A stretch of DNA of 46,706 nucleotides from a virus: positions 1-46,706 of the IMG/VR virus record IMGVR_UViG_3300042356_001329, one strand, 5' to 3'. Position 1 is the stretch's first letter, and every line of letters begins with the position of its first letter. The notes under the pieces were generated by a model, which saw nothing but the letters and a program-made list of their open reading frames with translations, was not told the DNA's origin and did no database searches. A program made the translations under genes and the position numbers. Positions 2 through 31,943 of the stretch are shown here, in pieces.

Positions 2-2413
2 GGCTATTTGAGACAGGTCGGAAATAATAATCACGAGAGTCTTGCTGCAGCAAAAAATGCCGCTAACGGTCGAAGTAAACTTTCCTCAAGTGGTCGCGGG
101 ATGCGCTCCATTACTGGTAGTAACGATTCCAATGCTGCACGAGAGTCCAGAAGACTTACCGGCACAAATTTTGATGAAATGAGCGATGAGGAACTTGATA
201 AAATTATCAATGAAGGAGATACATCTCAAATAGGTGGAAATCGTGACATTTATTTCTTTGGCGCAGTAGAAGAAAGAAATAGACGTAAGGGAATCAAGCC
301 ATTTAACTCAAATGATTTTGATTTTGATATTTCTCGTTTCTCAAATTCCTCAAGACCAACTTCACGAAGAAATAGTCGTCAATCACCTCCAGACAATCGC
401 TTATTAGACAACGAATCAGGCACACGTTCACGTCCTGTCCCAAAAACATTCAATGACTATGTAGAAAACCCCCCACGTCAAGGGATGCGTTCACAATCTA
501 GACCCAAACCTCCGCAATATCCTCGCAAGCCAACAATGGGTGCGTTCATCGGTTCTGCAGATTCAGAATTTGATGGAATAACAAATTGGGAAGATTTTAA
601 ACGCGTGCTTGCAGATAAAGAAATTGTTTTCATCGACTACGAAACAACTGGTCTCAAATTCAATGAATTTAACGAATCAGCAGGAAATGGACTACCTACT
701 CAAATAGGTGCCGTAAAAATGAAAAATGGCAAAGTCATTGACCGTTTCAACGTATTCGTCAACCCAGGAACACCAATGTCCCAATGGGAAAAATGGTCAC
801 AAGACAACCTGAAAGACGGCGACGGCAACCCAATAACTGACGCATATCTTGCCGACAAACCCTCAATAGCAGAAGCCCATAAACAATTAGTTGAATTCAT
901 GGGCAATACAGAATTGATGGGTATGCAAAATGCCGTTTTCGATAACGAAGTACTAGAAGACGCATTGAAAGATTCAGGAATTGATTGGCGACCCAAAGGC
1001 ATTATCGATACTAAAGAAATTTCAGATATGGTTCTTCCAAAATGGTCTGAAACAAATCAGAACGCCCCATTCAAGATCAACAAAGATGGAACAAAGTCAC
1101 CATCAAACTCACTTGGAGATATAACAAAATATCTTGGTATCGAACTTGGAGACAAACACCATAACGCAGACGCGGATGCCGAAGCAACAGCAAAAGTAAT
1201 GCAAGGAATTATTGACGGTGCCATAGAAAACAACTGGCCCACGGACGTATTAGACAAGTCCAAACGACGATCCAAAGAGAACGAAACTAAAACTAAATTT
1301 GAAAAAGCAGTTGCGGCATTTGAAAGTGAAAAAGAAACTTTCCTAAATGACAGACCTTCTTCCAATGATGAAGGCGGCATGCGATCACGTACTGCAACAA
1401 AGCCGACTAAATCAACCACCAAGCGGACGCCTAAACCAAAAGCAGTTGAGCCACGCGAATATAGGAATTCAAATACCGAAAATCTTCCACAATCACGTGA
1501 TTATTACAATGTTGAAGATATTGACAACGCAATGCGAGACATTATCGATGATGTTTATTCTGGTGTCAGGGAACCACAAGACATTACGGACAGAGTTAAT
1601 GCTTTACGTGATGAAATCAAAGAACTTGGATCATCGTCGGGCATGCCTGATGACATGATTGAAGATTTGCTTGATGGTACCAAGACTGGGCCAATTGCAT
1701 CCGAGGTCAATGATGTGGTAGGTGGATTTGAAAGATGGGGTGGATTACGTTCCCGTTCCAATGTTGGATCAAATGCACGGTCCAAGGCCGGTGTTGCTGG
1801 AAGAATTATTTCATCTGAAAGATCACGTAAGGCATTAGAAAAAATTGGTATTGATGAAGATAGAGCAGAGGCTGTTCAACTTCTTGGCGAAATGGCTGCA
1901 GCGTTCAGTATCAGTGGTCCTGCTGGCATGGGTACTGTTCTCGCTCGACGAGCAGGACGGGATGTTGCCGACTTTGGTTTAGCGGAAGCGGTAGAACGAG
2001 GCTGGATGAGTCAGGCGACAGCGGACAAGATTGCTAAGCGAATGTTGGATCGTGTCGCCCCAGAAGGATTACCAGACGATATTAAAGATATTATTGAAAA
2101 AGGTAAGGATGCTGTCACTTCTGATGAAAGCAAGGCTAAGGCTGCTGAACTTTTAGACACCATTCGCGAAACTGTTCGCTCGGGTGGCATGCAACGTCTT
2201 GTGGATTCGGCGAAACAAAGAACCAGGGTCTTGACGGACATCGCTAAAGAACGTGGTAGAGAATTGGCGGCAGAAAAAATGCGTGAGGCTCGTGAAATAG
2301 CGAGGGATAAAGCATCGGAGTTGGCGGACGATGCAATGGACGCACTGAAAGAGCGCGGCAAAGAAGCGGCAGGACGTCTAGTTGGTAGATTTGCAAGAAG
2401 AGGGGGCAGATAA
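2..2413 (+). CDS. Polyvalent head-region protein with DnaQ-like 3'-5' exonuclease domain (5' end cut by window)
   Basis: The frame is open to the window edge and the first possible start is a TTG without a Shine-Dalgarno (SD) site, so I read this as a partial gene entering from the left. Residue numbers count from that TTG. Residues about 198-405 form a DEDDh exonuclease: a D-x-E pair (D210, E212, followed by TTG), a mid-domain Asp in QNAVFDNE, and a final His/Asp stretch HHNADAD. All catalytic groups appear present, so it should degrade DNA or RNA 3' to 5'. The N-terminal 180 residues and residues 430-600 are low-complexity, and the last 200 are Ala/Arg/Glu-rich helix. GMRS linkers occur at about residues 31, 159 and 456, with a GLRSRS variant near 580; they flank the exonuclease. 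The stop overlaps the next start by one base. The exonuclease call is firm; delivery in the virion is inferred from context. Confidence 0.8.
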   Translation, partial: GYLRQVGNNNHESLAAAKNAANGRSKLSSSGRGMRSITGSNDSNAARESRRLTGTNFDEMSDEELDKIINEGDTSQIGGNRDIYFFGAVEERNRRKGIKPFNSNDFDFDISRFSNSSRPTSRRNSRQSPPDNRLLDNESGTRSRPVPKTFNDYVENPPRQGMRSQSRPKPPQYPRKPTMGAFIGSADSEFDGITNWEDFKRVLADKEIVFIDYETTGLKFNEFNESAGNGLPTQIGAVKMKNGKVIDRFNVFVNPGTPMSQWEKWSQDNLKDGDGNPITDAYLADKPSIAEAHKQLVEFMGNTELMGMQNAVFDNEVLEDALKDSGIDWRPKGIIDTKEISDMVLPKWSETNQNAPFKINKDGTKSPSNSLGDITKYLGIELGDKHHNADADAEATAKVMQGIIDGAIENNWPTDVLDKSKRRSKENETKTKFEKAVAAFESEKETFLNDRPSSNDEGGMRSRTATKPTKSTTKRTPKPKAVEPREYRNSNTENLPQSRDYYNVEDIDNAMRDIIDDVYSGVREPQDITDRVNALRDEIKELGSSSGMPDDMIEDLLDGTKTGPIASEVNDVVGGFERWGGLRSRSNVGSNARSKAGVAGRIISSERSRKALEKIGIDEDRAEAVQLLGEMAAAFSISGPAGMGTVLARRAGRDVADFGLAEAVERGWMSQATADKIAKRMLDRVAPEGLPDDIKDIIEKGKDAVTSDESKAKAAELLDTIRETVRSGGMQRLVDSAKQRTRVLTDIAKERGRELAAEKMREAREIARDKASELADDAMDALKERGKEAAGRLVGRFARRGGR

Positions 2414-5193
2414 TGCCTACGCGCCTTATTTTTGTTGGCAATACAACTGAGGGAAAGTTGTTCTATAACGCTGACGCCAACCCTACTGAAAAGAACGCAA
2501 TTTTTATTGATTCACAGGAAACTGAAACTCCAGTTGATTTAGTTTCTTTTATTAGTAGCAATCCTGATATGAACGAAATTAGATCAACACCGTTCCACCA
2601 GTTTTTATGGGATGGCGCTGAAGGACAGATGGCTGATCGCTGGAAGCGCGTTTTTATGAATCGCACACAGCCAGTCGATGAAAGCCTCATCAAAGATGTT
2701 GAAGTTAAGAAAAAACCCAAGAAACGCCTTGTTGCTCAGAGTAAGAACAATCAAATCATGGCATTTAAGTCATTGGTATTTTCTCAACAATTTGAAAAGA
2801 TGCCGAATTCGGCGCTTGGTAATCGGAGATCGTCTAATCGCACAATTATGGGGATGAATTCTAAAATTCTTGGTCCTGTTCGTGCTGGTTATGACGGTGA
2901 CAATGATGGATTTATTGATGATGGCTTGCCTACGATGCGTCCATTCATACCTGGTTTAGATGTAGCGAATATACGAATTCCAAAATCTGTTCGTGCTCAG
3001 GGGATGAGGGTGCGAACATCGTCTGCTCCTGTTGATAGGTTCGCAACGATTTCGGTTGATCAAATTCGTCAAACAGTGTTGAATCAAGATAAATTTCTTG
3101 AAGAAAGATTCAATGATGGGAAACCAATAACTTCCATTGGTGATGTTAAAAGAATATTGATGGATGAGTTACCTAGTTTTGCTAATGGTGGATCAAATTT
3201 TGATTTCTTAGATGGTCCAGATGACCAACCGCTAGAACCCTACGCATATGAGAATATGGTTGGTTTTTTACTCGTATTGCATGCTAACCCAAGTATGAAA
3301 AAGTTTTCTTATGACATGAAACCTTTTGGTATTGGTGACGAGCCGGGTGTTGGTGGAAAAACTCGCTATCAATCAGGAAATCAGTGGACTGTAGTCAATG
3401 GGGCATATGTTGCTACAAAAAATAGAACACCAAAAATCACTATTACTTATCGTCACCCGATGGACCCAATGTACAAGATGGCGAGTCCATCCATCTTATT
3501 CAGTGAAGGTCGATTTGATGTAAGTTCAAATATTATTGGTTCTGCCATGATGAGCGGAATGGCGGAGAGTTTGGGCGGATCGTTGGATGACGAGGCCTTG
3601 ATGTCTGTTTATGAATTTCTCAATTACAATAATATGAATAACTCTTTGGGCAATTTTATTGATTTAGTTACTCCCCAATTTGGTTCCAACCCAGACGCAC
3701 GGCTTCCTGGTGTTGATCAAGCAACAATGGACACTATTAAGTACTTAACTGATACTGGGGTTATCCCTGACGATATGTTTAATAATGGGGCAACGATTCG
3801 GCTTATTGAAAAAGTTCGTGACATAGCAAAGAATCAATCATCTGCCATATCTGACGGATTTACAGATCAGGCCAAGGGTGCTCTCAAATACCATGAAGAG
3901 ATGTGGTCTGTTTTGGCCAGGTCTACGGCGATACACGAAGCCACGCATGCCGCACACCTTGCGCAAATGCATGAAGATATGTTGGCCTATCTACTTCAAC
4001 GCGGTGTTGACCCTTCTGTTGGTATCCCTGAGATCGCTTCAATGATGACGAAATCTATGGATAAAAAACAATTGAAACAAATTTTGGATGATGCAACCGA
4101 TATGAATGCGGTAGTTCTGAATAAGATATTTTCTGATGTATTTAAAAACCTTGCTTATAAGGCATCATCTACTGGCAATCAGAATGCGCAAAATACTTTA
4201 GAAGATTTTATGAATCAGCCTCTTTATAATAAAGATGGTTCGGTTATTAAAATAAATAAAGAAATTGCTGATCTTTTTAATCACCTTGAATCCATGAGTG
4301 GACAAAGTGTTTTTGGTGAAGGATATCCTTATAAAGAAGGAGATAATTTCACTTTTGCACAAGCACACATGCTTGCAGACGGAAGAATTCTCAGCCTTCA
4401 GAGACAAGATGCTAGAAGGCAATTTGCGGGAATTAAATTGTATTACGATAAAGACAAAACTGTTGCGAGCAATGCATTAACGTTGATTAGGCAAGAGGGA
4501 TACCCGGCGCTCGTGATGCAGCGAGGGAAAACTCGCCCCTTATCTAAGGAATCAGGAAAATTGATCGCTGATTCCGTCAATTCTGCAATGGGTATGGTCG
4601 GAAGAATTGTTCATTCTGGCGTTGATCTGAGAAGTGTTCGTGCTGTTGGGTCTTTTAGGCATACCCCGACTGATGTTGCTGGGCCGTTGTTGCATTCAAC
4701 ACAAGTGAATGCGCGGACAATTCAGGACATGGCAGCAATGGATGATGTGGATGGGTTGAAAAATATTGCAGAAATGTCTATTATTAATTCTTTTGCTCCT
4801 CTTGCAAGAAATGCTGATCCTGCAACGCTTGGAACCATTATGGAAACTACTGGTATGGATTTTTGGCATTTTGATTCGCTGAAAGATGATGATGTGAAAA
4901 GTATTATTGATATGGCTAGACGGTCTGCTGAGCCGGGATACAGGAACTATATGTCAACGGCGCTCAATAGGAGAATCGTTAGTTTCCTTCAATCGAATCC
5001 TGATAGTTCGGAGTTGATGGCTGAGTTGGCAGTTTATGATGCTTTTGGTATACCTATTCAGGTTCATGAGGATGTTGTTGGTCGGTCAACTTCAAAACGC
5101 GCATTAACTTCTGATGAAATTAAATTGTTTGATAAGTTACTTAGTTGGCTTTTCCCAAAGGGTAAATTGAGTAACATTAATGAGGTCAAATAA
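2413..5193 (+). CDS. 926-aa head-region protein with zincin-like HEATH motif and acidic metal-binding-type loop
   Basis: The ATG overlaps the upstream stop by one base and follows a GAGGGGG SD sequence. An acidic loop, YDGDNDGFIDDG (about residues 160-171), looks like a calcium-binding EF-hand/dockerin loop and is followed by RPFIPG; equivalents sit in the 2517- and 2281-aa proteins downstream. HEATH at residues 508-512 fits the HExxH zinc signature of metallopeptidases, with helical sequence on both sides; a third ligand is not certain. A linker variant, GMRVR, occurs just after the loop. The rest is unrecognised. Position in a run of overlapping genes ahead of the capsid gene suggests a minor head or internal protein. 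Its peptidase could in principle process the linkers in its neighbours, but nothing in the sequence proves this. Confidence 0.7.
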   Translation: MPTRLIFVGNTTEGKLFYNADANPTEKNAIFIDSQETETPVDLVSFISSNPDMNEIRSTPFHQFLWDGAEGQMADRWKRVFMNRTQPVDESLIKDVEVKKKPKKRLVAQSKNNQIMAFKSLVFSQQFEKMPNSALGNRRSSNRTIMGMNSKILGPVRAGYDGDNDGFIDDGLPTMRPFIPGLDVANIRIPKSVRAQGMRVRTSSAPVDRFATISVDQIRQTVLNQDKFLEERFNDGKPITSIGDVKRILMDELPSFANGGSNFDFLDGPDDQPLEPYAYENMVGFLLVLHANPSMKKFSYDMKPFGIGDEPGVGGKTRYQSGNQWTVVNGAYVATKNRTPKITITYRHPMDPMYKMASPSILFSEGRFDVSSNIIGSAMMSGMAESLGGSLDDEALMSVYEFLNYNNMNNSLGNFIDLVTPQFGSNPDARLPGVDQATMDTIKYLTDTGVIPDDMFNNGATIRLIEKVRDIAKNQSSAISDGFTDQAKGALKYHEEMWSVLARSTAIHEATHAAHLAQMHEDMLAYLLQRGVDPSVGIPEIASMMTKSMDKKQLKQILDDATDMNAVVLNKIFSDVFKNLAYKASSTGNQNAQNTLEDFMNQPLYNKDGSVIKINKEIADLFNHLESMSGQSVFGEGYPYKEGDNFTFAQAHMLADGRILSLQRQDARRQFAGIKLYYDKDKTVASNALTLIRQEGYPALVMQRGKTRPLSKESGKLIADSVNSAMGMVGRIVHSGVDLRSVRAVGSFRHTPTDVAGPLLHSTQVNARTIQDMAAMDDVDGLKNIAEMSIINSFAPLARNADPATLGTIMETTGMDFWHFDSLKDDDVKSIIDMARRSAEPGYRNYMSTALNRRIVSFLQSNPDSSELMAELAVYDAFGIPIQVHEDVVGRSTSKRALTSDEIKLFDKLLSWLFPKGKLSNINEVK

Positions 5194-5194
5194 T

Positions 5195-5536
5195 ATGATT
5201 AGCCAAGAAGAGTGGAATCAAAAAATTAAACAACTCTGGGGGACGACTTTAGTCTCAGTGAATAATTCAGATTTATCTATTGACGAACACATTAGTAGGG
5301 CTAGGAAACTCCAAACAGGAATCGACCCCCACGAAGCCAGACGCAAAAACAAAGCACAAGAAATCGCCGCAATCATGTCACTCCCAGGAAAAAAGAACTG
5401 GGTACGAGAAGACGATAAGCCATATTTTGAACTAATCACAAGCGGACTAATTAATTATCCTCCCGAAGATAGGCTAGACTTATTAGAGTTAACGAAATCT
5501 GATGATTTCCTCAAAAAATATATATCGGAGTTATGA
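5195..5536 (+). CDS. Hypothetical 113-aa protein of the head cassette
   Basis: I do not recognise this protein. I chose the ATG at 5195 because GAGG lies about nine bases upstream, overlapping the end of the preceding gene; an in-frame start five codons earlier lies inside that gene. The product is charged and mostly helical, with no Cys motif, signal peptide or membrane segment. A basic patch (HEARRKNKAQE) is followed by an acidic C-terminal half. Its stop overlaps the next gene, so it is probably translated as part of the same polycistronic message and is likely a small head or assembly factor. Confidence 0.6.
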   Translation: MISQEEWNQKIKQLWGTTLVSVNNSDLSIDEHISRARKLQTGIDPHEARRKNKAQEIAAIMSLPGKKNWVREDDKPYFELITSGLINYPPEDRLDLLELTKSDDFLKKYISEL

Positions 5537-6177
5537 TGGAAACTGGACGCTACTCTTACAAAGCAGCGATACCTGAGGTCGGTATCCCTCAAGAAAAATT
5601 CACTGGCGACGTACTAAAGGGGTACGGCCCACGAAGAGGGAATCTTGAACGCCTCCTCCGCTACTGGCGTCCCATTATGCGCAAACCAGGCGGCTTCAGG
5701 CGATGCAAAGTCATCCTGGCAGACCATCCAGAACTGTATCCATTAAATAATATTTGCGCATGGCTACACCATGAAACTACAGGCTTATGGCCCAATGAGG
5801 GGTGTCATCACCCTGGAATGAAGAATTGTCGCCGCAAACTTAAAAAAGGCAAAAATGGTTCATTGTGGTCTAATGAGCAATTCAATAACCGTCTATCCCG
5901 TATCCCCAAAGCGGGCGCAAAGTCACTTCAAAGCGATGTTTTCTTTGATGCTGACTGGTATACCAAGGGATTGGATGTGTATGCGGGTAACGAAAATTAT
6001 GTTGTCACGCCAGATGATTTAACTCATGCATTTAAAGTGCTATCGGATTTTTGTGAAATGGAATCAAAGTTTGCCGAATATTTGCGCAATAACGACAATT
6101 GGGAATTTGAAGGCGAAAATGAAGCCGGGTTCACCCTCAAGTCGCTTATGCCTGTAGAGGATTGTGGATGTGACTGA
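5536..6177 (+). CDS. Hypothetical 213-aa Cys/His-containing protein
   Basis: Two adjacent ATGs are possible (5533 and 5536). The GGAG at 5527-5530 is five bases from the second and only two from the first, so 5536 is preferred. The central part, about residues 75-100, is rich in Cys and His (ICAWLHH, GCHHPGMKNCRRK) and could bind zinc. The following basic stretch may contact nucleic acid. The C-terminus ends in CGC. I cannot assign a family. The gene overlaps its neighbours on both sides, so it belongs to the head-region transcription unit. Confidence 0.6.
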   Translation: METGRYSYKAAIPEVGIPQEKFTGDVLKGYGPRRGNLERLLRYWRPIMRKPGGFRRCKVILADHPELYPLNNICAWLHHETTGLWPNEGCHHPGMKNCRRKLKKGKNGSLWSNEQFNNRLSRIPKAGAKSLQSDVFFDADWYTKGLDVYAGNENYVVTPDDLTHAFKVLSDFCEMESKFAEYLRNNDNWEFEGENEAGFTLKSLMPVEDCGCD

Positions 6178-8201
6178 TGAACTCTTTTGAGATCATTAAA
6201 CCAAGCAAATGCTGTCCTGATCAGCAGATTGTTGTTCAACGCCATGTTCTGACAGCAAAAAATGTTGATGGCAATGCATTTGTTGGGTCTATTGCTTCAA
6301 AACAAGAAATAGTCAACTACAAAGCAATGGTGAAAATGCTTGGTCTTGGTGACAACTATCGAGTTAAACGTGTCGGCACCATCGGTTCATCTTCCACTAT
6401 TGGACAAACGGCGCAGGCAGTCGGTTCATATTTCTTGCCTGGCGATACGTCAATCCTGAGAAGCCCTATTCGTTCAACCGGATTTTCTTTACTAACCCCA
6501 GGAACACCCAATATCCCCAGACTTCCTAGTATGCGCACTGGTCGCGACAAAGTCCATAGATGTCCTGAAGGATTTCAGTATGGCGGTCGTTTTACAGATA
6601 ATCAGTTCACTACATGTGGAGCAAAATTGTTCGACATTCCAAGCCCTCTTGGATTAGCCATGTCTGCTTTGCGTGCGTTACGCAGGGGAACAACCCTGAA
6701 GCCCATTCCTGTAGAAGGAAGGGCATTGACCCCGGGAGAGTACGGAGGATCAGTGATTGATTCTCGTGCACCACAAATCCCACGAGTTACAGATAGTGAT
6801 GTCAAAAAACAACTTGAAAGTATTAGGCAAATTGTCAAAGACATGAATCAACCGAACCTTGATGCCAAGAGAATGGTACGGCGTGACGGGTTCATTCTGG
6901 AACCAGTGGTATCTCCAAAAGTTTTGAGAACCATTCCCGATAACCGTGACATGGAAGGGGCAGCATACATTTTAAATGCAAATAATGTTTCTACCCTCGG
7001 TGGCGAAGAACTTGGGTTGCTCTCAAATACTGGAGTAACCAAACTTATGTACGTTTTACCTGGTGGATCAACACTTAGTTTAGAAAAAGTTAGACCATTA
7101 ACCGTTGGTGAACGTCGCAAACTTGGTAGAACAGTCAATGCTGCCTCTCGTATTGATAATAGTCAGATCGCTGCGGCAAGACTGATGTCTGTTGCTGAAG
7201 AAACTGGTGACGGGATTCAATATTCTGAAAATTTTGTTGGTGTCAGCAACCCCCATAAGAGAATTGCTACAAGAAATGGCAAAATGGTTGAAAGTTGGGT
7301 TGGTCAAGTATTTGCCAACCGCAAAGGCAAGCCATTGCCCGAGACGAGACAGACTTCTTCTGAGGCTGGCATTTCTGAAAAAATATCTTCACTTCAAGAA
7401 GCGATTGAGCATATTGCGGCGGGTGGAAGTCTTGCTTCTATTTCCCCCGATATTCTCCAACAGGCGCTTATTCAGGCTGGATTATTCAAAGCACGCAATA
7501 TTGGCAATAATCAGAAAATTTTCGACGGACCCAATGGAAGATCGTATTTGTCTATTAGTCCTATTAATGATTTTGAACATTTGAACGCAACTCTCGTTTC
7601 TGATATTCAACAGCATTTTGGTATTGAATCTCCAGACGTTTATCCATATGGCTCGGGTCCTCGTCGTTCATATTTGAAAGAAACTTCTGGGACTGTTTAT
7701 CCAGGAAATGTGCCATCTACCAGCAAACTATTTAAAGATGGCGACATTTCTCATGTGGCTGCGCTTTTAGTGTCCGACTTATTGATCGGTGATTCCAATA
7801 GGTCGCCCGCAAGCGTCGAAATTATAGAATTGTCAGACAAAAATGCGGTTGTCCCGACCATCAACTTGCCCGATTTTACTGAGATTCAAAAGAAAATCAA
7901 GACCCCCGAAGAACTCATCAGACAAATGGCATCACTTGCTGAAAATGGCTCCTATCAGGAGTATTATAGAGAGTTGAAGAGTCAACAAAAAAGACAATTC
8001 CTTGCCATCATCAATAAGTTGCTAGCAAGAGCACGGGCTTTTAATTTTGAAAAATATCAAGCCAGATTTGTTATTGATGGAAGATTGACCGAAGTAGAAA
8101 AAAGTCATTTACTAATAATGCAGAAGATAGTCAAGCAGAGAATTGGCTCTCTGGAAAGAGCCGGAGATTTGATCCGGAATATACTTGGAGGATTTCAGTG
8201 A
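6177..8201 (+). CDS. 674-aa head-region protein with Cys motif and a possible degenerate kinase-like segment
   Basis: The start overlaps the upstream stop by one base. Residues about 123-150 hold a short Cys motif (HRCPEGFQYGGRFTDN then TCGAKLF), which may be a small metal site. An isolated PSMRTGRDK resembles the GMRS linkers of neighbouring proteins. The segment around residues 450-570 ends in ALLVSDLLIGDSNRSPASV. That is faintly like the catalytic-loop region of HipA/PI-kinase-fold domains found in some phage head proteins, but key residues do not line up clearly, so I treat it as unproven. The C-terminus is basic and helical. A minor head or internal protein is the best guess. Confidence 0.6.
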   Translation: MNSFEIIKPSKCCPDQQIVVQRHVLTAKNVDGNAFVGSIASKQEIVNYKAMVKMLGLGDNYRVKRVGTIGSSSTIGQTAQAVGSYFLPGDTSILRSPIRSTGFSLLTPGTPNIPRLPSMRTGRDKVHRCPEGFQYGGRFTDNQFTTCGAKLFDIPSPLGLAMSALRALRRGTTLKPIPVEGRALTPGEYGGSVIDSRAPQIPRVTDSDVKKQLESIRQIVKDMNQPNLDAKRMVRRDGFILEPVVSPKVLRTIPDNRDMEGAAYILNANNVSTLGGEELGLLSNTGVTKLMYVLPGGSTLSLEKVRPLTVGERRKLGRTVNAASRIDNSQIAAARLMSVAEETGDGIQYSENFVGVSNPHKRIATRNGKMVESWVGQVFANRKGKPLPETRQTSSEAGISEKISSLQEAIEHIAAGGSLASISPDILQQALIQAGLFKARNIGNNQKIFDGPNGRSYLSISPINDFEHLNATLVSDIQQHFGIESPDVYPYGSGPRRSYLKETSGTVYPGNVPSTSKLFKDGDISHVAALLVSDLLIGDSNRSPASVEIIELSDKNAVVPTINLPDFTEIQKKIKTPEELIRQMASLAENGSYQEYYRELKSQQKRQFLAIINKLLARARAFNFEKYQARFVIDGRLTEVEKSHLLIMQKIVKQRIGSLERAGDLIRNILGGFQ

Positions 8202-11200
8202 ATCGTTACGCCCTATTAAAAGATTCTATTAATGACAGTATTTTTGGAGTAATCGTTGATAGTAACGGTCTCTCAAAATTCTATGGCGTAAGCGCCAAAG
8301 GGCTAGAATGGTCCAAGTGGGCCAACGGGATTAACGTTAAAAGCGAAAACAACGGTTTACCAATTGGCGTAGTGGTAGGCGGTTACTCGGCCCTTCGTAA
8401 CACTAACCCCAACTATATTCAAGCACTCGTAGATACTGTATCTCTCCGCAATCCTTCAATCAATAAGAAACAAGGCATCTCTGATTCTTTGATCAAGAAC
8501 TCTTCCTCGGTTGTCCCTGGTGTTCGTGACGCGGAATTGCGTGCATTTGACATCGACAAGCGTAATGAAGCCATTGCTTTCAAAGCGCGTGCATTCCGTA
8601 CCGACTCCAAAGTTTCATCGTTGCTTACCCAGGTGCGTGCGGAGCGACTGGGATTTGTTTCAGCCGAAGGCGTATTCAGTTCACGTAACCCAATCCATAC
8701 CCCTGAAGTGAAGCAAGCAGAAATTATTGATTCGTATGGTCGTTCTTTGCAGCGTGCTATTGGCTTGAGTCTTATTCGTAAGAAGTCAGCCAAGATGCTT
8801 GCTGTTGTCCGCAAGGATCAGGCGCTTGCTCAGTCTTTTGGTATTGAATTCAAGGCGGCTGGCATTGGTCCGAAGATTGGCAGTCGTTTGGGTGGCGGTC
8901 TTCGTTCTGCTCCTGCTGGCATGTCTTTTGTTGACGTTACTGGTGTGACTGACGCTGATACTGACGGTATCGTTTTTGAAGGTAAGCCTGGTCTTGAGCG
9001 TCCGATTATTCCTCGTTTTATGGTTCCGAAGGACCTTGCTCGTAAGTTGTCTGGGATTGTTGATGGTGATGCTGAAGAGATTGAGAAGCAGCGTCGTGCC
9101 GGCAATACGAGTGTTCAGTTTGATGAAGGTAAGTTGCGTAATATTGTTGCGAGTGTTGGTGGGGATGCGAGTCTTCTTCAGGCTGTAACTAATGATCGTG
9201 GTGTTCCTGCTACTACGACTTCTGGGCGTGAGCGTGTTTCTGCTGCTGCACGTAATGTTGCTGGCAATATTGCTTCTCGTCGTAGGGAGATTGCTTCGCG
9301 TCGTGGTATGCGTAGTGGTCAGCGTGCCGATCTTGGTGATGCGACTCCGCTTTCTCCTGGTGAGTTGAATAAGTTGTCGGAGCAGGAGATCGTTGATCGT
9401 TTGATTGAGGATCGTTATGCTGGTTTGAATCTTGATGAGGCTGCGAAGAAGTATGGTTTGAAGGGTGGTCGTGTTGAGGCTCGTCGTCTTGAGGCTCGCG
9501 AAATGCAGCGCCGTAATAACCAAGGTATGCGCTCGCGGACAACACCTCCAGGAATAGTTCGCGAAGATTATTTCAACTTTGAAGAATATGATTTCAATGA
9601 TCAGGTTGTTGACGCGATGGGGAACTGGATGGGTCGACCGGATCAGCAAGAAATGCGCGAAAGAAGCGGTGGACTTGAGGCACTCTGGGAAGACTTCAAG
9701 AAGTCTGACGAATACCGCGACATGGAAGCCGACATGCTGGATGACAACCTTAAGTTCAGTGGAGCAACTTCGGATAATCCGGTACTAGTCTCAACCGCAG
9801 GCAATGACCGTGGTCAGGCAGAAATCAAATATGACGGAGAAATGTTCACTGTTGACGTAAGTTTATGGAATAACGAACAAGACGAACTTTTTGATACTCC
9901 AGAAGCCAAGAAAGAATTCGATAATCTGTCTGAAGCAGAAGAATATGCATCGTCGCTATTTTCTGATGGCATGCGTTCACGTAACTTAAAAATGTCAGGT
10001 GCTCCAAAAGAAATTCAAGATTCTTACTCCGAAGATGACATTAAAAAAATTGAAAATTCATTACGTACTGGAGGTCGTCAGGAACTTCGCCTGTCGTGGG
10101 ACTCAGAAAATAACGGTTGGATGCTTGATTCTTTTGATGCCGACGGAGAAGTCTTTATTGAAGCAGACGCACCACTAGTTCGTTTAACTGATGCAATATC
10201 TGATGTTATTGCAGATCGATATGACTCAGAGGCATATGGTGGCGAACCGCCATACCTTAGCAATATGAATGAATTACTGCCCGATGAAGAAGATAGGGAC
10301 GATAGTTGGATTAAAGAATATCCAGTTTCTGGTATGCGTTCAGTTACTGGTATTTCAGAAATGAACACTTCTGGCGCTCCAAAAGAATATGCAGATGCTC
10401 TAGAAAAATGGCGTGGCTATTTTGGCGAAACACCTACTCGTAGGAATAGAAGAACAGGAAAAGTAACTGAAAGTGAGCGGAATCACCCAGCACTACCTTC
10501 AGTCTATTGGAATAAAGAAAATGAATCGTGGGTGCTTTCGTTCGATGGCGAACCGACCGAATTAAGTATTTATTCTGACGATCCAAGAGAAGCAGCAAAG
10601 GCAGTTTCGGATATTCTTGAAACAACAGCAGATCGTTATCGTTGGGAAAATGAAGACAACTTTGGGGATATTAGCGATTTGGCAGATATCGGTGAGATGT
10701 ACAGTGATGGCGACGGTAAAGATAGAACCGTAAAAATTACCGCTGGTATGCGTTCCAGTTCAGGAAACATTAATAGTTTTGACGACTATCTGAACCATCC
10801 CGCATTTGATAGAGATTTTGCTGAATGGCGCAAAGACAATCCAGGTAAAAATAAGAGAGATTTTATTGACGACCCAGACGGCGCAGAAGAATACTTCTCG
10901 CTTGGTATGGAAGAAGCAGGCGCATCCTTAAACCCAGAATCATATTTTGGCACTTCTGGCATGCGTTCACGTTCAGGTGGTATGCGTTCACGAGTTGGTG
11001 GTGGCAAATGGGATGGCAAGCGACCAGAACCACAAGACATTAAAGCAGGTGCAGACTTAAGCGGAGCGGACCTTAGTTATCAAATTTTGCGTCGTATTGA
11101 CTTGAGTGATGCTAATCTAACTGGAGCAAATCTTGTTGGTACAAAAATTAATGGTGCTAATTTGAAAGGTGCAAATCTAACAGATGCCAACCTTAGTAGA

Positions 11201-15751: not shown

Positions 15752-15764
15752 GGTGAAGGGCATC

Positions 15765-16121
15765 ATGGAAACTGGAACAAATGAACGCATGTTCATGCAG
15801 CAACACTCTCATTTATCGGAATTGATGGATTATCCGCCATTTACGACAAGTATTGAAAAATCTCAAGCATTTGAAGATGCATTGTCCGCAGCATATGACG
15901 TTATCTCTAAAAAACTTAACAAATTAGATGACGATATGGGAATTGGTCGTGATGAAACTTTCAAGGACTCATATAAGGCTGTTGTTTCTAAATATATCGA
16001 TGATATTGAAGAAGCAGAATTGTATCGTGTTCGCTATGGTGAGGACATTGAAGCAGCGCAAGCAGCAGCACTTGAGGCTGAAGGCAAGACAATAGACGAT
16101 GATGGGGTACCATATCTCTAA
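15765..16121 (+). CDS. Hypothetical 118-aa acidic helical protein
   Basis: I placed the start at ATG 15765, which follows AAGGTGAAGG at a good distance. A longer in-frame reading would overlap the giant upstream gene and lacks an SD site. The product is acidic and mostly helical (for example EEAELYRVRYGEDIEAAQ), with no recognisable domain. It lies alone between the two giant polyvalent genes and may be a chaperone, scaffold-type or adaptor protein for them; that role is a guess. Confidence 0.65.
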   Translation: METGTNERMFMQQHSHLSELMDYPPFTTSIEKSQAFEDALSAAYDVISKKLNKLDDDMGIGRDETFKDSYKAVVSKYIDDIEEAELYRVRYGEDIEAAQAAALEAEGKTIDDDGVPYL

Positions 16122-16152
16122 TAGTTAATTAGAATGTGAAGGATTACTCTAC

Positions 16153-19100
16153 ATGAAATCTACATCGTCCAGCACATATAAGAAGATGCGGGCGTTGCGG
16201 GAAGCCCAAAAATTAGGTTGTTCTGGCGCTCATCAAAATAGCGATGGCCGCTGGATGCCTTGTTCTTCGCATGACAAATTAACTCAAGTCGCCCCAGTGA
16301 TTGCTTCTGCCAGTAGGGATGCCATATCTCAAAATCGTGGAAAAAGAACCCTAAAGGGCTCTAACAAGATTAAGAAACAATGGGAGAACCTCGGTCAAAG
16401 TGGCATCCTCAATTTAGGCAACGTCGCTGGCGGCGGGTTAGTGGCTGGTAGTCCTACAGGGAATTTTGGTGGAGATGCTGCTGGCATGAGCGCCAAAGCA
16501 TTACCCAATATTTTTGGTCCACGCGATCAAGACGTTGATGTTTTCACTGACATTGAATCTGCCAGACAGCGTTCGCGTCAATTAGGTTGCGTTGGTGTTA
16601 GTCGACGCATCTCCAAAACTGGAGCGACAGTCTGGATGCCCTGCACAAACATGTCTGATTATTCGTCGCTTGCTGGAACAACCAGCCTGGGCAGACGTCA
16701 TCAAAAAGAACGTTTAGAGCGAGTCATTAATGCCGCCATTGAAAAGAAACTAAAAAAGAACAATAAACGTAATAAGAAATCTCTTGCTGGTGATATCAAT
16801 TTCAAAGCACTTGGCGGTGGCTTGGGTGGAAACCTGAACCGTCCTGCATTCTTTGATCCCAACGCATGGGACGGAGACAACGACGGTCGCGTACAAGACA
16901 ACACGCCATTTGAACGCCCATCCATTCCTGGAGTCAACGGACTGCCCGTGAGTGGGATGAGAAGTGTCAGTAAACCGAGACTGAACATAGATGAAGCGCA
17001 ACGGGAAAGCATAGAAAGCGGCGACACCGCATTTGATGAACTGGTACTTTCTAAAAAAGCAAAAAAGTATGCCCGAAAATATTTGAAATTATTTGAATCA
17101 ACTTTTGAACCAATTGATGAAAAATATCGCTATATGGACGATGACGAAATTATCGATCTAATCAGAAGTAGCATGCCCGCATCTGCCGAAGAACTAAAAC
17201 AATTAGTCCGCACAAATCCATTCACAAAAAACAAAGCAAGAACTGCATGGAGCCGACTCATGCAGGCAAATCCAGACTTTGAAGCAACAGCCAAAATGCG
17301 TGATGCTTTCATTAAGCAAATCAAAGATAACCCTGGTGTTTTGGAAATGGTTCGTCGTTATGGCGTTCCACCAATTGTGGCCACAGAGTATGTTCCAGCA
17401 TTGGCCTGGTATGGCAATAACACTGAAGGGTGGGGTGAAAGCGGTGGCGGCTGGGCCCATCTTGGTGTCATAGCAATGAACTATACGTGGGTTGAATTCG
17501 ATCACGGGATGTCAATCGAAGATGCTGTACGCCACGAAATGGGTCACGCGTGGGAAGCAATGGCTGCAGTTCAAAATGATAAAGCAAGAGCACATTACGC
17601 TTTACAATTTTCTGAACTTTATGAAGGACTTATTCAAATGTCCAGGAATAAGGAAAAAGCATCCTCCTATCACGACGCCAAATGGGGTAATGAATCAGAG
17701 CATGCCTCAGCAGCAAAAATATCTGAGTATGCAACGACAGCAAGAATTGAATGGTTAGCAGAAACAATTGCTGCCCTAACTAGTTCCGACCCAAGTAAAA
17801 GAGCAAAAGTTGATGCTACTGCTAAAGAGAATATTAGCGAATCATTCGGCATTGCACCTTGGGAAGTTGAACAAATATTCACTCCCATAGATGGTTCTGG
17901 AGGTTTTGCTAGCAGAATTTCTTCTTTGCCAAACAAACGTGATTTAGATAACCCAAGTTTGAGTGATTTTCTTAAAAAAAGATATGAAATAGATGAAGAT
18001 TCATTATCAGAATCTATGAAATGGGTTGAAAAAAATCCTGAGTATTTATCGGATATGTCGCTATCCGTCCAGTTATCTTCCTCCCCAGGGGTTCAGAGTC
18101 AATACAGGCGATCAGTCGTTGAAGGATTCAGGTCATATAACTCACAGGGACGCCAAGGTTCTGGTGGTAGAGAAATGGGCCAAAAAATACTCGGGCGTGT
18201 CAACCCAGAAGAATCCAATCAAGACGAACCAACATTATATTTCGTTGGTGGCACTACCGGTTCCGGAAAATCGACATTAGTAGCCAGAGGGGTAATGGAC
18301 GGTGTGCCAAATCAAAGTTCTGCCGCGCATATTGATCCCGACGAAATAAAAACAGGGTTAGTTGGCTGGAATGGCGGGCAGGGGGCCAGTGCAGTGCATC
18401 AAGCCTCACGGGTTGCCACCGACAAAATCATGGATGATGCCGCATTACAGCGAATGCATATGGTTGTCCAGGGTACGGGCAAGCGTCGCGAACATCTAAC
18501 CAATATGCGCAGACGAGGATATAAGACTTCAGGTCATTTTGTGTGGATTCCTGATGATCTCGCAGATCAAAGAGTTGCGGAAAGGAAACGTAACGGCGGA
18601 GCGAATATACCGACATATTTTGGTTCGCAAATTGCGAGAGAACTTAGAAGTGGGCCTGATTCTGTTTCTCGTCAGATAACTGACGGTCTTTATGATGAAT
18701 TTTTTCTTTACGATAACAGTGGAGATGTCCCAAAACTTGTAGCCAAACGTTTAACGGATGGTTCGTTTGAAATATTGAATAATCAGGTGTTTAATTCTTT
18801 CTTTAGTCCAACTGGGGCAAAGTTTGTTCGTGATTATTGGGAGAGTAACTCTCCATCAAATAAAAAGAATTTAACCCGTACCGGAATGTCTAGCAGAAGA
18901 GGTCTTTCTTCGATGGGTGACAAAGTTGGGATGCGATCACGTCGTCTCGGCGAATGGGAAGATGTAACTGATTACGACAAATTTGGTGAATCAAGTATCG
19001 CTTTAAAAAATACTTATGGTGAAGATAGTCTGCGTGATCTCTCAGAAATTTTGGAAAGCGAACAATCATCTATTAAGAAAGCAATTGCGCATTGGGAAAA

Positions 19101-22100
19101 AACTGGTGAATGGCTTGGTGAAGATTTCAATGTTTCTATGCCAAGAACACCAAATGCGAAATCTGGAATAACAAAAAATCATACTGCCGAAAGTCTGTTA
19201 AAAAATCAGACAAAAGAACAAATGAAAAATAACTTTGATTTGTATTTAAATAACATTGATGCTCAACTAAAGCATGTTCGTGGGCGACTAAAGAATATTG
19301 AAGAAATAAATAATGGCGCTGAACCATTGCACATCAATTTTGCTACTTTGCGTGACATGCCGGATTTTGATGCTTTAGTAAAACGTGGGAAAGAAATTAA
19401 TAACTTGAGATATGGAGACGAAAATCCACTTATTTCAGATGATTATATTTATTTAACACATACTGGTCATCCAGAACTTGAAAATGGCATTCTTGACCCC
19501 AACTTTAGCCTTGACGCTGGTGGTGGAGGCATCCCTGGTCGTGGATCAATGGATACAAAACGTTTAAATAAAGTCGGCAGGGACATGATTGTCCGAAAGT
19601 ACGAAACGGCAGAGAAAGACCTGACCGCATGGCAGGAAGTTGTTGATCATTTTAGTAAAACTGGTGAATGGCGTGGAGCAAAATTGGCTAAATCACTTCA
19701 ATTGGGAGCACAAAAACCCACTGGAAGAATTTTTAATGACTACAGTGCCGATGATTTAGACAATAAAATTTCTTCAGAGTACCTTCTTGATCAAGCATCC
19801 AACAGTATTGACTTCAACAAAGAAGTTCTTCAAAGATTAAGCAAGCAGTACGGTCCTGCTAAACGTAATGAAGAACATTTAAGTTACGAATTTGCTGGCA
19901 GTGGACCAAATTTTGGTTATAGCCGACGAGACACCCCCAGCAGTAAGACTTATCTTGTAAGAGTTCCTCGCGATGAGGCAACTACAGAGGCTGGACCGTC
20001 CACAATGGGGGAATTCCAAGTTTTCGGTCAACTCAAACCTGTTGCTTCATTTGAATTCCCAAGCAATATCAATGATTGGGACACCAACGCTGCCGCTACT
20101 GCTTATTTTGAAAAAATAGCGTTAAAAAATGAAGGAATTGCCACTTCTGGTATGCGTTCACGAAATCAACTTGGACAATCTATAGAAAAAGATGAGATTT
20201 TCGGAGGTTCAGTATTCTCTGGATTCACTCCACGAAATCCGCTTACAACAAGGGACCTAAACAACAATAATTTGCGTATGGCAGAAATGATTTCGATACA
20301 TGTCGACCCTCGTATTGATTTCAAAAACAGAAACATGGATTATGCAAACCTTACAAGAGCACATTTGGGTGGAATTGACTTAACAGAGTCATCGTTGTTT
20401 AGTTCCAACTTAAGTAATCTCAATGGTTCTGGAGTCATATTTGGCAAAACAAATTCCAAACCTGCTGATTTACGTTACTCAATATTGAGTGCAGCACAAA
20501 TGCCAAATTCCCAATTTGAGGGAGTTGATTTATCTGGCGCACTAATGATTTCAACAAATTTCAACAAAGCGAATTTAAAAAATACCAATTTTGAAAATGC
20601 CGTCTTATGGAATTCAGATTTTCGTGGTGCGGATTTGCGTGGATCGAATATTACCGTAGAGCAGTTAATGAATTCAAAATTTGATTCAACAACCAAATTG
20701 CCTGAAGGTATGTCGTTGCCAATTGCGGAGAATAATGGGACCAATACGCAAAAACCATCAACTCACAAGATTCCTCTTGGTGTTATTGGCAACGATGATG
20801 CCGATTTGCTTCGTAAAAATCTTGTTGATGGTGTTTTGAAAATTGATGGGCCGCTAGATGCCAAGAAACTTGAATTATTACGTAGAAATTTGAGTAAATC
20901 AGAAATTTCCAATACTGATTTACGACGATCAACCTTTAATGAAAGCACTTTTTTTAATTCAACAATGGCAAATGTGGATTTAACTGGAAGTTCTTTGTTT
21001 AAATCAAACTTCAATAAGAGTACATTGAACAATATAAAATTTAATCATGCAAATTTGGTTGGTGCTAATTTTAGAAATGCAATAATTGGTCGAAATGTCT
21101 CATTCAAGGGCGCAAATCTTACTGACGCAAATTTTGCTGATGCTAAAATACAAGGCAAGATAGACTTGTCTGGTGCCGATCTTACCGGAGCGATATTAGA
21201 TGGTGTGGATTTGCGTGATGCCATAGTTGATAGTCAGACAAAACTTGATGGCGCTATTGGTCTTGACAGGAATAAAACACCTAAAATGGTTGTCCGTGGT
21301 TTGAGATCACGTAATTATTCTGATATGTCGACAGAAGATTTAATAAATACTCCAGGCAATGTTCTTTTGTCTGATGCCAATGATGCATTGCTAGAAATTG
21401 GCAAGATGAGTAATGCCAAGCGTCCAGATGCAAACATTGATCCCCTAGTATCTAAAATACAAATTATTTATGGACATCTTAATGATGTTCCTGGAATCAA
21501 TGAAGATTTCTCTATCAAGAATTCTGAGTTAGATAATCAAATATCTGCAGTAAATAACATTATTGATCAGTTTGGAACATTCAAATTCGGTGATGGACAA
21601 CCCATAGATGTTAGAAAATTCATTGAAAATAAAGATAAATCAGGATATGTCAAGGCAATTAAGTCTTCTGGACAAAATGTTCCACTCAGTATTCCAATTA
21701 ATGAGTGGAATAAAATAAATTCTCAATTAATTGCACGCGATATGTTGAATGATCGCAAAGAATTGTTATCTCCAACAACAAAGATAGTTAAAAGTAAACT
21801 GAATAGTTCTGTTGCTACAGAAGCGATGCTTTCTGACTATGGAATTATGAGCAATATTAATAATCTTCCAGATTTTTCAATCGCTGAACCGATTCGTAAG
21901 AAGCGACCAACGCCTTCAATAGCCAGTGGTGAACTTGGGCCAAATGAAATGTTGATTTATAACTCCAATAACCGTCCAACAATTTCCAAAATACCTAAAT
22001 CACAAAGAATTGAACAATCGATCAATCGTGTAAACGGTATGGCGAGCAGATCGAAGCCAACTTCTGAAACAGGGAGAGCAAATAGGTCAGAAGAAATCTA

Positions 22101-22998
22101 TAAAACTGTTTCTGATGCACTCATTGCAGCCCTAGAGGAATCTGTTGATGGGAATTGGGAACGTCCTTGGAATTTGGGGACGACAATTCCAAGAAACGCT
22201 TCCACTGGCAGACAATATGGCGGGTTTAATGTCATCCTTTTTTCTCTTGTCCAACAGAATCGTAAATACGAGTATCCTGTATGGGCCACATACAAGCAAT
22301 GGGAAGCACTTGGCGCCCAAGTTCAAAGAGGCGAAAGGGGTTTGACCGGAATTAAGTGGGTTTCTCGCGAACGCGACGTCAAACTCCCAGATGGCACCCC
22401 GACCAAGGATACGTTCTTGACCCCTAGTGCCTTCACGGTTTTTAATATTGCCCAAGTTACTGGGGCGAATCCAGATGATTTCCTCCCTCCAAGGCTTTCT
22501 CCAGAAGAAAGAATTCCTGCTCTAGAAGAAATCTTTGGACAAATTCTTCCCAATATTAAAACAATCAATGGAGATTCTGCATACTATAGTCCGGCTAGTG
22601 ACTACATCAATATGCCCCCGTTCTCAGCCTTTAATGACCCAAGCGCATACTATGCAACACTTTCTCACGAATTGATTCACTGGACAGGAAATAAAAAAAG
22701 AGCCGACCGCCCAAATATGAACCGATTTGGGACACCAGAATATGCTTTTGAAGAATTAGTAGCAGAAATAGGTTCTGCTTATCTAATGGCACTCCTTGGG
22801 ATGGAAGCAACACCTCAAAAACAACACGCCCAATATTTGAAATCATGGATCGAAATATTAAAAGATGACCCTACCGCAATTCAACGTGCCGCAAGCCAAG
22901 CACAAAAAGCAGTAGATTATCTTATTGCTCAATCACCAAAACTACAAGAATTATCGACGCCTATTAACATTTCACAAAATTTAGTGGAAGAAGCCTGA
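16153..22998 (+). CDS. Giant 2281-aa polyvalent protein: Cys modules, zincin, zeta-toxin-like kinase, pentapeptide repeats, ArdC
   Basis: The ATG follows GAAGG. In order: two Cys modules with LGC...WMPC (about residues 21-37 and 145-161); an acidic WDGDNDG loop at about 239 followed by RPSIPG; a zincin-like HEMGH at 461-465; a zeta-toxin/PNPase-type kinase with P-loop GTTGSGKS near 700; a possible ADP-ribosyltransferase-like region (LTHTGHPELENG near 1101, GEFQVFG near 1287); two pentapeptide-repeat blocks (about 1395-1505 and 1580-1700); and a C-terminal ArdC antirestriction module (about 1975-2275) with the ssDNA-binding N-terminal domain and metallopeptidase HELIH at 2172-2176 plus a downstream FEELVAEIG. 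GMRS linkers or variants (GLRSR, GMASR, GMSSR) separate blocks. ArdC proteins protect incoming DNA from restriction in plasmids and phages. Assignment of ArdC and the P-loop kinase is confident; the ART region is weak. Confidence 0.85.
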   Translation: MKSTSSSTYKKMRALREAQKLGCSGAHQNSDGRWMPCSSHDKLTQVAPVIASASRDAISQNRGKRTLKGSNKIKKQWENLGQSGILNLGNVAGGGLVAGSPTGNFGGDAAGMSAKALPNIFGPRDQDVDVFTDIESARQRSRQLGCVGVSRRISKTGATVWMPCTNMSDYSSLAGTTSLGRRHQKERLERVINAAIEKKLKKNNKRNKKSLAGDINFKALGGGLGGNLNRPAFFDPNAWDGDNDGRVQDNTPFERPSIPGVNGLPVSGMRSVSKPRLNIDEAQRESIESGDTAFDELVLSKKAKKYARKYLKLFESTFEPIDEKYRYMDDDEIIDLIRSSMPASAEELKQLVRTNPFTKNKARTAWSRLMQANPDFEATAKMRDAFIKQIKDNPGVLEMVRRYGVPPIVATEYVPALAWYGNNTEGWGESGGGWAHLGVIAMNYTWVEFDHGMSIEDAVRHEMGHAWEAMAAVQNDKARAHYALQFSELYEGLIQMSRNKEKASSYHDAKWGNESEHASAAKISEYATTARIEWLAETIAALTSSDPSKRAKVDATAKENISESFGIAPWEVEQIFTPIDGSGGFASRISSLPNKRDLDNPSLSDFLKKRYEIDEDSLSESMKWVEKNPEYLSDMSLSVQLSSSPGVQSQYRRSVVEGFRSYNSQGRQGSGGREMGQKILGRVNPEESNQDEPTLYFVGGTTGSGKSTLVARGVMDGVPNQSSAAHIDPDEIKTGLVGWNGGQGASAVHQASRVATDKIMDDAALQRMHMVVQGTGKRREHLTNMRRRGYKTSGHFVWIPDDLADQRVAERKRNGGANIPTYFGSQIARELRSGPDSVSRQITDGLYDEFFLYDNSGDVPKLVAKRLTDGSFEILNNQVFNSFFSPTGAKFVRDYWESNSPSNKKNLTRTGMSSRRGLSSMGDKVGMRSRRLGEWEDVTDYDKFGESSIALKNTYGEDSLRDLSEILESEQSSIKKAIAHWEKTGEWLGEDFNVSMPRTPNAKSGITKNHTAESLLKNQTKEQMKNNFDLYLNNIDAQLKHVRGRLKNIEEINNGAEPLHINFATLRDMPDFDALVKRGKEINNLRYGDENPLISDDYIYLTHTGHPELENGILDPNFSLDAGGGGIPGRGSMDTKRLNKVGRDMIVRKYETAEKDLTAWQEVVDHFSKTGEWRGAKLAKSLQLGAQKPTGRIFNDYSADDLDNKISSEYLLDQASNSIDFNKEVLQRLSKQYGPAKRNEEHLSYEFAGSGPNFGYSRRDTPSSKTYLVRVPRDEATTEAGPSTMGEFQVFGQLKPVASFEFPSNINDWDTNAAATAYFEKIALKNEGIATSGMRSRNQLGQSIEKDEIFGGSVFSGFTPRNPLTTRDLNNNNLRMAEMISIHVDPRIDFKNRNMDYANLTRAHLGGIDLTESSLFSSNLSNLNGSGVIFGKTNSKPADLRYSILSAAQMPNSQFEGVDLSGALMISTNFNKANLKNTNFENAVLWNSDFRGADLRGSNITVEQLMNSKFDSTTKLPEGMSLPIAENNGTNTQKPSTHKIPLGVIGNDDADLLRKNLVDGVLKIDGPLDAKKLELLRRNLSKSEISNTDLRRSTFNESTFFNSTMANVDLTGSSLFKSNFNKSTLNNIKFNHANLVGANFRNAIIGRNVSFKGANLTDANFADAKIQGKIDLSGADLTGAILDGVDLRDAIVDSQTKLDGAIGLDRNKTPKMVVRGLRSRNYSDMSTEDLINTPGNVLLSDANDALLEIGKMSNAKRPDANIDPLVSKIQIIYGHLNDVPGINEDFSIKNSELDNQISAVNNIIDQFGTFKFGDGQPIDVRKFIENKDKSGYVKAIKSSGQNVPLSIPINEWNKINSQLIARDMLNDRKELLSPTTKIVKSKLNSSVATEAMLSDYGIMSNINNLPDFSIAEPIRKKRPTPSIASGELGPNEMLIYNSNNRPTISKIPKSQRIEQSINRVNGMASRSKPTSETGRANRSEEIYKTVSDALIAALEESVDGNWERPWNLGTTIPRNASTGRQYGGFNVILFSLVQQNRKYEYPVWATYKQWEALGAQVQRGERGLTGIKWVSRERDVKLPDGTPTKDTFLTPSAFTVFNIAQVTGANPDDFLPPRLSPEERIPALEEIFGQILPNIKTINGDSAYYSPASDYINMPPFSAFNDPSAYYATLSHELIHWTGNKKRADRPNMNRFGTPEYAFEELVAEIGSAYLMALLGMEATPQKQHAQYLKSWIEILKDDPTAIQRAASQAQKAVDYLIAQSPKLQELSTPINISQNLVEEA

Positions 22999-31460: not shown

Positions 31461-31943
31461 TTAGTCATTGGTCGTTTTATATTTATTTCTTCTGCGTATA
31501 TTAATTTTATTTCTATTGTTTTTATGATACTCATTGCTTGCTTTATTAGAACAATATTTGCACACCCTATGTCCACTGCTCCTATGATAAGTATTTTCAA
31601 TGGAGTATTCGCGTGAACATGTTCCACAATGTGTTTTTACTTGATTTCGATGTCTTTTTTTCCCAATCATGTCATCGACATTTCCTTGATTATCAGAAAC
31701 AAATAAATGACTTGGATTTACACATGATGGATTATCGCATGAATGGCAAACAAAAATATCACTGAATATTTCCCCATTAAGTAATGACCATGAGATACGA
31801 GATGCCGTGACTGTCTTCCCATTTAATTTAAAATTACCGTATCCACGAGAATTTTTTCCAGCAATCCATTCCCAGCATTCACTTTCTGTTTTTTTATCTA
31901 CTTTTGCCCAAAATCTTTTTAGTTGTTCATCTGTAAGTTTCAT
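31461..31943 (-). CDS. HNH endonuclease (homing-type), copy A
   Basis: The 160-aa product has an N-terminal FWAKVDKKTESECWEW module, then the HNH_3 signature VCHSCDNPSCVNPSHLF with the following DDM and KR. The C-terminal half contains a second Cys4-type ribbon (THCGTC, VCKYC). Such enzymes cut DNA at specific sites and are usually free-standing homing endonucleases in phages. Its start overlaps the stop of copy B by four bases. The proteins are clear paralogues (FWAKV, GYG.F.LN, CH.C.NP.C.NP.HL shared). The SD is weak, so translation may be coupled. Confidence 0.9.
   Translation of the reverse strand: MKLTDEQLKRFWAKVDKKTESECWEWIAGKNSRGYGNFKLNGKTVTASRISWSLLNGEIFSDIFVCHSCDNPSCVNPSHLFVSDNQGNVDDMIGKKRHRNQVKTHCGTCSREYSIENTYHRSSGHRVCKYCSNKASNEYHKNNRNKINIRRRNKYKTTND

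Follow-up and report, generated by a model that had tools for sequence, protein, structure and literature searches.

Polyvalent proteins of phages, as described by Iyer et al. 2017 (PMC5512222), are very large multidomain late proteins encoded beside head genes and carrying ArdC-N, MPTase, kinase and other effector domains, and their processing into units by embedded peptidases has been proposed, with the polyproteins of RNA viruses as an analogy. No separator word is named in that paper, from which the term "linker" is absent, and the assemblin-like peptidases described there are always C-terminal. Prohead proteases of the HK97 type (Peptidase_S78, PF04586; S78 below) are encoded between portal and capsid, and in HK97 the capsid is cut at K103/S104 (PMC10275583). 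Packaged proteins that enter the host and are cut by a prohead protease at a shared short motif include T4 internal proteins, the SPN3US gp245 substrates, among them ejection proteins (PMC10052503), and DarA of P1 (PMC12810830); mostly these have one N-terminal propeptide each (14 sites in nine SPN3US substrates, PMC10052503). In eukaryotic RNA viruses, one open reading frame (ORF) holds many units with repeated sites and the virus protease is in the same chain. The closest cultured relatives of the phage examined here are Cantare (Brevibacterium) and GMA6, ChisanaKitsune and DalanDe (Gordonia) (capsid 44–49%, S78 about 40%), which have effector-like genes between portal and capsid as it does.

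The present study analyzes the window, i.e. the whole 46,706-nucleotide stretch of viral DNA in IMG/VR record IMGVR_UViG_3300042356_001329, together with related contigs. The giant ORFs of the window fit the definition of polyvalent proteins given by Iyer et al. 2017: they combine unrelated effector domains (RNase_T in one; pentapeptide repeats and KTSC in another; Zeta/AAA_33, ArdcN and MPTase-PolyVal in a third; all above Pfam cut-offs) and are encoded beside virion genes, with a portal-like ORF and S78 on one side and the major capsid on the other. They differ from those described in having a genome-specific word at the joints, and in this group S78 is N-terminal or upstream. Compared with ejection proteins, a short motif is likewise shared across ORFs of one phage, but there are up to 15–16 sites of one word per protein and 38 per genome, and these lie between modules. 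Compared with HK97-type systems, the protease has the expected family match, motifs and location but is fused to or followed by up to approximately 40 kb of polyprotein ORFs. As in RNA viruses, many units and repeated sites are found in one ORF; protease and cargo are in one ORF in seven contigs and S78 is a separate ORF in three others, and both protease and cargo are unrelated to those of RNA viruses. No description of a genome-specific word, of its concerted rewriting or of an N-terminal prohead protease with such cargo was found in the open-licence papers searched. The features of the window are as follows.

2–2413 (+): last 803 aa of a polyprotein that is 2727 aa long in contig G003, DnaQ-like exonuclease module and helical tail, three GMRS
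98–109 (+): GMRS separator, exonuclease ORF aa 33
482–493 (+): GMRS separator, exonuclease ORF aa 161, left edge of exonuclease module
1376–1387 (+): GMRS separator, exonuclease ORF aa 459, right edge of exonuclease module
2413–5193 (+): 926-aa ORF with HEATH motif; D-box then variant GMRVR; exact GMRS absent
2893–2952 (+): D-box DGDNDGFIDDGLPTMRPFIP of the 926-aa ORF
6177–8201 (+): 674-aa ORF with Cys box (CPxG..F.D..C), without separators, kept in most contigs examined
8198–15751 (+): 2517-aa polyprotein, constant N-terminal region, then modules divided by 15 GMRS (pentapeptide solenoid, KTSC pair, others)
8951–9013 (+): D-box DADTDGIVFEGKPGLERPIIP, before first exact GMRS of the 2517-aa ORF
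9305–9316 (+): GMRS, 2517-aa ORF aa 370
9524–9535 (+): GMRS, 2517-aa ORF aa 443
9968–9979 (+): GMRS, 2517-aa ORF aa 591
10331–10342 (+): GMRS, 2517-aa ORF aa 712
10745–10756 (+): GMRS, 2517-aa ORF aa 850
10742–10989 (+): duplicated module copy 1 (NINSFDDYLNHP...), separators at start and end
10958–10990 (+): GMRS pair, 2517-aa ORF aa 921 and 928 (GMRSRSGGMRS)
11726–11737 (+): GMRS, 2517-aa ORF aa 1177, right edge of pentapeptide solenoid
11870–11881 (+): GMRS, 2517-aa ORF aa 1225
12131–12378 (+): duplicated module copy 2 (DNA 96% identical)
12347–12379 (+): GMRS pair, 2517-aa ORF aa 1384 and 1391
12824–12856 (+): GMRS pair, 2517-aa ORF aa 1543 and 1550
13304–13315 (+): GMRS, 2517-aa ORF aa 1703, left edge of KTSC pair
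13913–13924 (+): GMRS, 2517-aa ORF aa 1906, right edge of KTSC pair
16153–22998 (+): 2281-aa polyprotein, WMPC boxes, HEMGH region, Zeta/AAA_33 kinase, pentapeptide repeats, ArdC-N and MPTase
16870–16929 (+): D-box DGDNDGRVQDNTPFERPSIP, just before first GMRS of the 2281-aa ORF
16954–16965 (+): GMRS, 2281-aa ORF aa 268
18928–18939 (+): GMRS, 2281-aa ORF aa 926
20149–20160 (+): GMRS, 2281-aa ORF aa 1333
23336–24643 (+): HK97-type major capsid protein, N-terminal delta-like segment; lineage word absent at border

Direct count gave 21 exact GMRS words in the window, distributed 3, 15 and 3 over the exonuclease, 2517-aa and 2281-aa ORFs exactly as the original prediction had reported, where approximately 0.1 would be expected from composition; ORFs shorter than 850 aa had none. 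In an unbiased scan GMRS was the top 4-mer of the 2517-aa ORF, scoring 75 against a shuffle maximum of 12, and the variants GLRSR, GMASR, GMSSR and GMRVR named in that prediction were all located in the window. Its placement of the word at joints between unrelated domains was borne out as well: GMRS frames RNase_T (aa 209–399 of the exonuclease ORF) at aa 161 and 459, the pentapeptide repeats at aa 928 and 1177 and the KTSC pair at aa 1703 and 1906 of the 2517-aa ORF, while in the 2281-aa ORF Zeta/AAA_33 (aa 688–840) precedes separator sites at 911/926 and ArdC (aa 1981–2249) comes after GMASR at 1962, and 0 of 21 GMRS fell inside best-stretch Pfam envelopes. AlphaFold2 was used to model the exonuclease ORF and aa 580–1240 of the 2517-aa protein, and each of the ten GMRS lay between folded units in a stretch with pLDDT under 50 (approximately 95 for the pentapeptide solenoid, approximately 85 for a helical module and approximately 85 for the exonuclease). 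With about 46% of modelled residues below 50 and shallow alignments, the models do no more than support a position of the separators in predicted disorder between folded modules. Among the matches listed, those of the 2281-aa protein to cultured phages were only around ArdC; the 674-aa ORF had no match in the phage collection, and a search of the window for RNA families and tRNAs returned none.

The window holds part of a larger array. It continues upstream in contig G003, which is longer than the window and nearly identical to it. In this contig, whose 2281-aa protein and capsid are 100% identical to those of the window, 38 GMRS occur in four ORFs of 3661, 2727, 2557 and 2289 aa (stop-to-stop lengths) between the portal-like ORF and the capsid. 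The original prediction of an array in three genes thus holds for the window but understates its extent, and what it called the exonuclease protein, although correctly counted for GMRS, is only the C-terminal portion of the 2727-aa ORF, which the window edge truncates. The 3661-aa ORF begins, approximately 18.6 kb upstream of the window start and so outside it, with a 170-aa S78 prohead protease domain (PF04586, E=1.2e-12, 48.7 bits against a curated cut-off of 21), with His and Ser motifs (WGH, EWSIGY) kept in all aligned sequences. S78 was fused at the polyprotein N-terminus in G003, G005, G007, G011, G015, G017 and G022, and was its own ORF with the first polyprotein directly after it in G006, G013 and G014. 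Most polyprotein ORFs have in their N-terminal part a D-box (DxDxDG..RPxIP), a Cys box or WMPC boxes, usually one per ORF and usually before the separators, and these boxes, or fusion to the protease, may be the part that targets the protein to the head. In Cantare and GMA6 the S78 gene runs on into an acidic region, and a DGSFPI segment forms its end in GMA6 and ChisanaKitsune; in the lineage of the window the acidic/DGSFPI part is a separate ORF after the first polyprotein; cargo may have entered between the protease and the tail of an ancestral protease gene. That acidic ORF (L065, G003 18482–20380), whose terminal DGSFPI segment is fused to S78 in the cultured Gordonia relatives, also matched PepSY weakly (E=0.004, short of the Pfam cut-off).

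S78 relatives in IMG/VR amounted to 573 stretches. Comparison was extended to 17 contigs with capsids 69–100% identical to that of the window. Related phages (capsid 69–96% identical) had the same layout with other words, namely GMSS, KLSSG, STRSSR, GSKSTTR, SSRS, LRSSG, GLASST and GLSSGA, each recurring across two to five ORFs of the genome to which it belongs but nearly absent from other genomes. GMRS occurred 38 times in G003, 37 in G005 and 14 in G006, the last also with 16 GMSS; STRS 33 times over four ORFs of G013; GSKS 18 times over four ORFs of G014; SSRS 15 times in G015; LRSS 19 times over four ORFs of G020; GLSS 14 times over two ORFs of G022; GLAS 7, 5 and 11 times in G021, G026 and G027; and KLSS 10 and 15 times in G011 and G012. 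Outside the own lineage counts were mostly 0–3, with some overlap of GL-type words, so that the word-by-genome matrix was close to block-diagonal, with almost no counts in ORFs below 850 aa. Full consensus words (GMRSR[ST]G, [KR]LSSG[RK], STRSSR, GSKS[TS]TR, R[ST]LRSSG, GLSSGA) were compact, with information near background beyond 5–7 residues, and most had in common a core of R, K, S or A followed by S after a mostly hydrophobic or small residue. No word was found in G028 and G030 and no clear word in G029, and the cargo-like ORFs at this locus in Cantare, GMA6, ChisanaKitsune and DalanDe had no over-represented word. A lack of such an excess at domain borders in relatives was one part of what would have contradicted the original prediction; this comparative check did not contradict it, and the relatives have words of their own. 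Internal translation starts at the GM of GMRS were considered and rejected, since KLSSG, STRS and GSKS of other lineages have no Met.

Homologous cargo carried the local word. The exonuclease module was 49–61% identical in G012, G014 and G027 and was flanked by GMRS in the window and G003, KLSSG and RLSSG in G012, GSKST and SKST in G014, and GLAS on both sides in G027. Among 477 cross-word module matches, 24% of left and 18% of right ends were within 5 aa of the local word, compared with 3% for random placement. The capsids and S78 domains of G020 and G027 are 96% identical and yet their words differ: GLASST-type words stood opposite [ST]LRSSG at 7 or more orthologous joints whose flanking sequence, on one side at least, was 48% or more identical. 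A word merely carried along with modules was rejected as a full account, since homologous cargo has the local word and orthologous joints have been rewritten. It is about an even chance that this reflects a rewritable cleavage code, in which the prohead protease and all separators of a genome would change together and cassettes from relatives would be re-punctuated to match. We also noted a basic module of 46–48 aa (RKKKGK..KRKPFSPEDRQRFADGDRLKARTIP) recurring in several lineages (G003 7449–18431; L022, L121, L130), in most cases with the local word on one or both sides.

Substitution patterns indicate at what level these sites are maintained. At 14 orthologous GMRS sites of G003 and G005, pN was 0.008 compared with 0.060 in the flanks while pS was 0.24 compared with 0.25, and in ten pairs of KLSSG polyproteins, which are not independent, there were zero amino acid changes at 5–10 LSSG sites per pair with pS of 0.08–0.45. 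DNA at the sites was diverse, with 23 different 12-mers among 24 LSSG sites, 19 among 38 GMRS sites, and GMRS codons mixing CGN with AGA and TCN with AGY. Diverse codons and near absence of amino acid change show that selection acts on the peptide and not on the DNA. A passive flexible linker of drifted composition, recognized by nothing, would fit the disordered Arg/Ser/Gly-rich stretches in which the sites lie, but neutral sequence would not be expected to yield an exact word of 4–7 residues with pN near zero that is uniform within each genome and changes from one relative to another, and such a linker is scarcely credible as an explanation.

Modules are gained, lost and swapped at separator joints. 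Where blocks had been replaced among five KLSSG polyproteins, 64 of the 82 boundaries fell within 6 aa of LSSG, compared with 18% of random positions; the pairs are not independent and represent roughly ten distinct events. The 248-nt duplicated module of the window starts and ends at separators in both copies, and the 2517-aa ORF and its G005 counterpart are alike at the ends but differ in content and order of cassettes between GMRS sites. These observations are what would be expected if the word were mainly a recombination joint, uniform within a genome as a by-product of module traffic through shared separators; nevertheless the peptide at the sites is conserved and the DNA is not, and in-place rewriting at orthologous joints is not module-borne, making this account very improbable. 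A DNA recombination site as sole cause was rejected because of the codon diversity at the sites, which also makes DNA-level recombination at the word unlikely. The original prediction, which took the word for a protease site, for a recombination joint or for both at once, is partly supported: module exchange at joints stands, recombination acting on the DNA of the word is unlikely, and the reading favoured here, on comparative sequence patterns, is a site between modules recognized in trans by a protein, most simply a protease. Favouring such a site are a lineage-specific word common to several ORFs, its in-place rewriting, near-zero amino acid change with normal synonymous change, and S78 fused or adjacent to the cargo. 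Proteolysis is the simplest form of recognition given the linked prohead protease, the K103/S104 precedent in HK97 and the cutting of packaged proteins in SPN3US and P1.

We consider it probable that these are processed polyproteins of head-packaged effectors, with the candidate word cut in trans by a phage protease, most likely S78. The giant ORFs between portal and capsid would be polyproteins with a constant N-terminal region (D-box, Cys box, WMPC box or S78) followed by effector modules, and the word between modules would be recognized in trans by a protease that the phage itself encodes, most probably S78 at or just upstream of the first polyprotein. Polyproteins would be carried into the prohead; the protease would then cut at the words during head maturation, and many small antirestriction and effector proteins would be freed and would leave with the DNA into the next host. 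Cassette exchange at joints would proceed alongside this processing. The analysis demonstrates a single word per genome common to several ORFs, its maintenance at the peptide level, its concerted change between relatives, its place in predicted disorder between folded modules, the exchange of modules at joints and the presence of S78; packaging, cutting, injection and the role of S78 as the enzyme are inferred.

Several observations speak against this reading or against S78 as its enzyme. First is that the lineage word was not found at the capsid delta/N-arm border, which is conserved across lineages in the capsid alignment, and the border was rejected as a further copy of the site. Secondly, the words of G020 and G027 differ despite their nearly identical S78 domains, and G028, G029 and G030 have S78 with no clear word. 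The cultured relatives, with cargo-like ORFs at this locus but no repeated word, likewise count against the reading. One residue in an S78 loop (x-KM) corresponded to R or S/A in the word, which was suggestive in a first set of lineages but had exceptions with more; this correspondence was post hoc and is not counted as evidence. Furthermore, many of these ORFs also contain HExxH metallopeptidases, which could do the cutting. The words might be cut instead by a zincin-like (HExxH/MPTase) domain in the polyproteins or by a host protease, perhaps after injection and not in the prohead, which would agree with the capsid border lacking the word, with the occurrence of HExxH motifs in at least one polyvalent ORF of almost every separator-bearing contig, and with the MPTase processing of polyvalent proteins proposed by Iyer et al. 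2017 (PMC5512222). We regard this as unlikely, as S78 is a constant feature whereas the HExxH domains of different lineages vary in family and in how many there are, and a host protease would not obviously account for the divergent words of two phages so closely related as G020 and G027. Less likely again is a role for the word in binding, as a short tag by which a head protein would recognize cargo for loading or packaging, with the polyproteins staying whole. Compactness, selection on the peptide and lineage-specific wording would fit any trans-acting partner, but one copy per polypeptide would be enough for packaging where approximately one per module joint, often doubled, was observed; the sites are always between folded modules in the two models, and the conserved N-terminal boxes are better candidates for a packaging tag.

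If cleavage by a phage protease is correct, it would supply a mechanism by which polyvalent phage proteins could be divided into units, as has been proposed. Exact candidate cut sites would be marked, such that the limits of modules could be taken directly from sequence for hundreds of uncharacterized injected effectors, and the lineages would provide a naturally occurring set of proteases that are close relatives but differ in specificity.

Host look-up in genome contigs gave as its only match a short contig of a Phycisphaerae metagenome-assembled genome (MAG), which is not trusted; the cultured relatives infect Actinobacteria. A relative of the S78 domain (L192) was on a 28.5-kb contig binned as a Phycisphaerae MAG, which is probably a phage contig of uncertain host. 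Elsewhere in the window, two ORFs after the capsid (24932–29033; 902 and 529 aa) share a phrase of their own, RGPGNPG(R/x), in long disordered stretches, and the 902-aa ORF also has YDEY repeats. On the minus strand, features recognized by eye were two adjoining paralogous HNH-like small ORFs (31461–32434), a glycosyltransferase-like ORF next to methyltransferase-like ORFs (33649–35415), and, side by side, genes similar to those for a MoxR-type AAA ATPase and for a VWA-like protein bearing an HEMVH motif (41959–44150).
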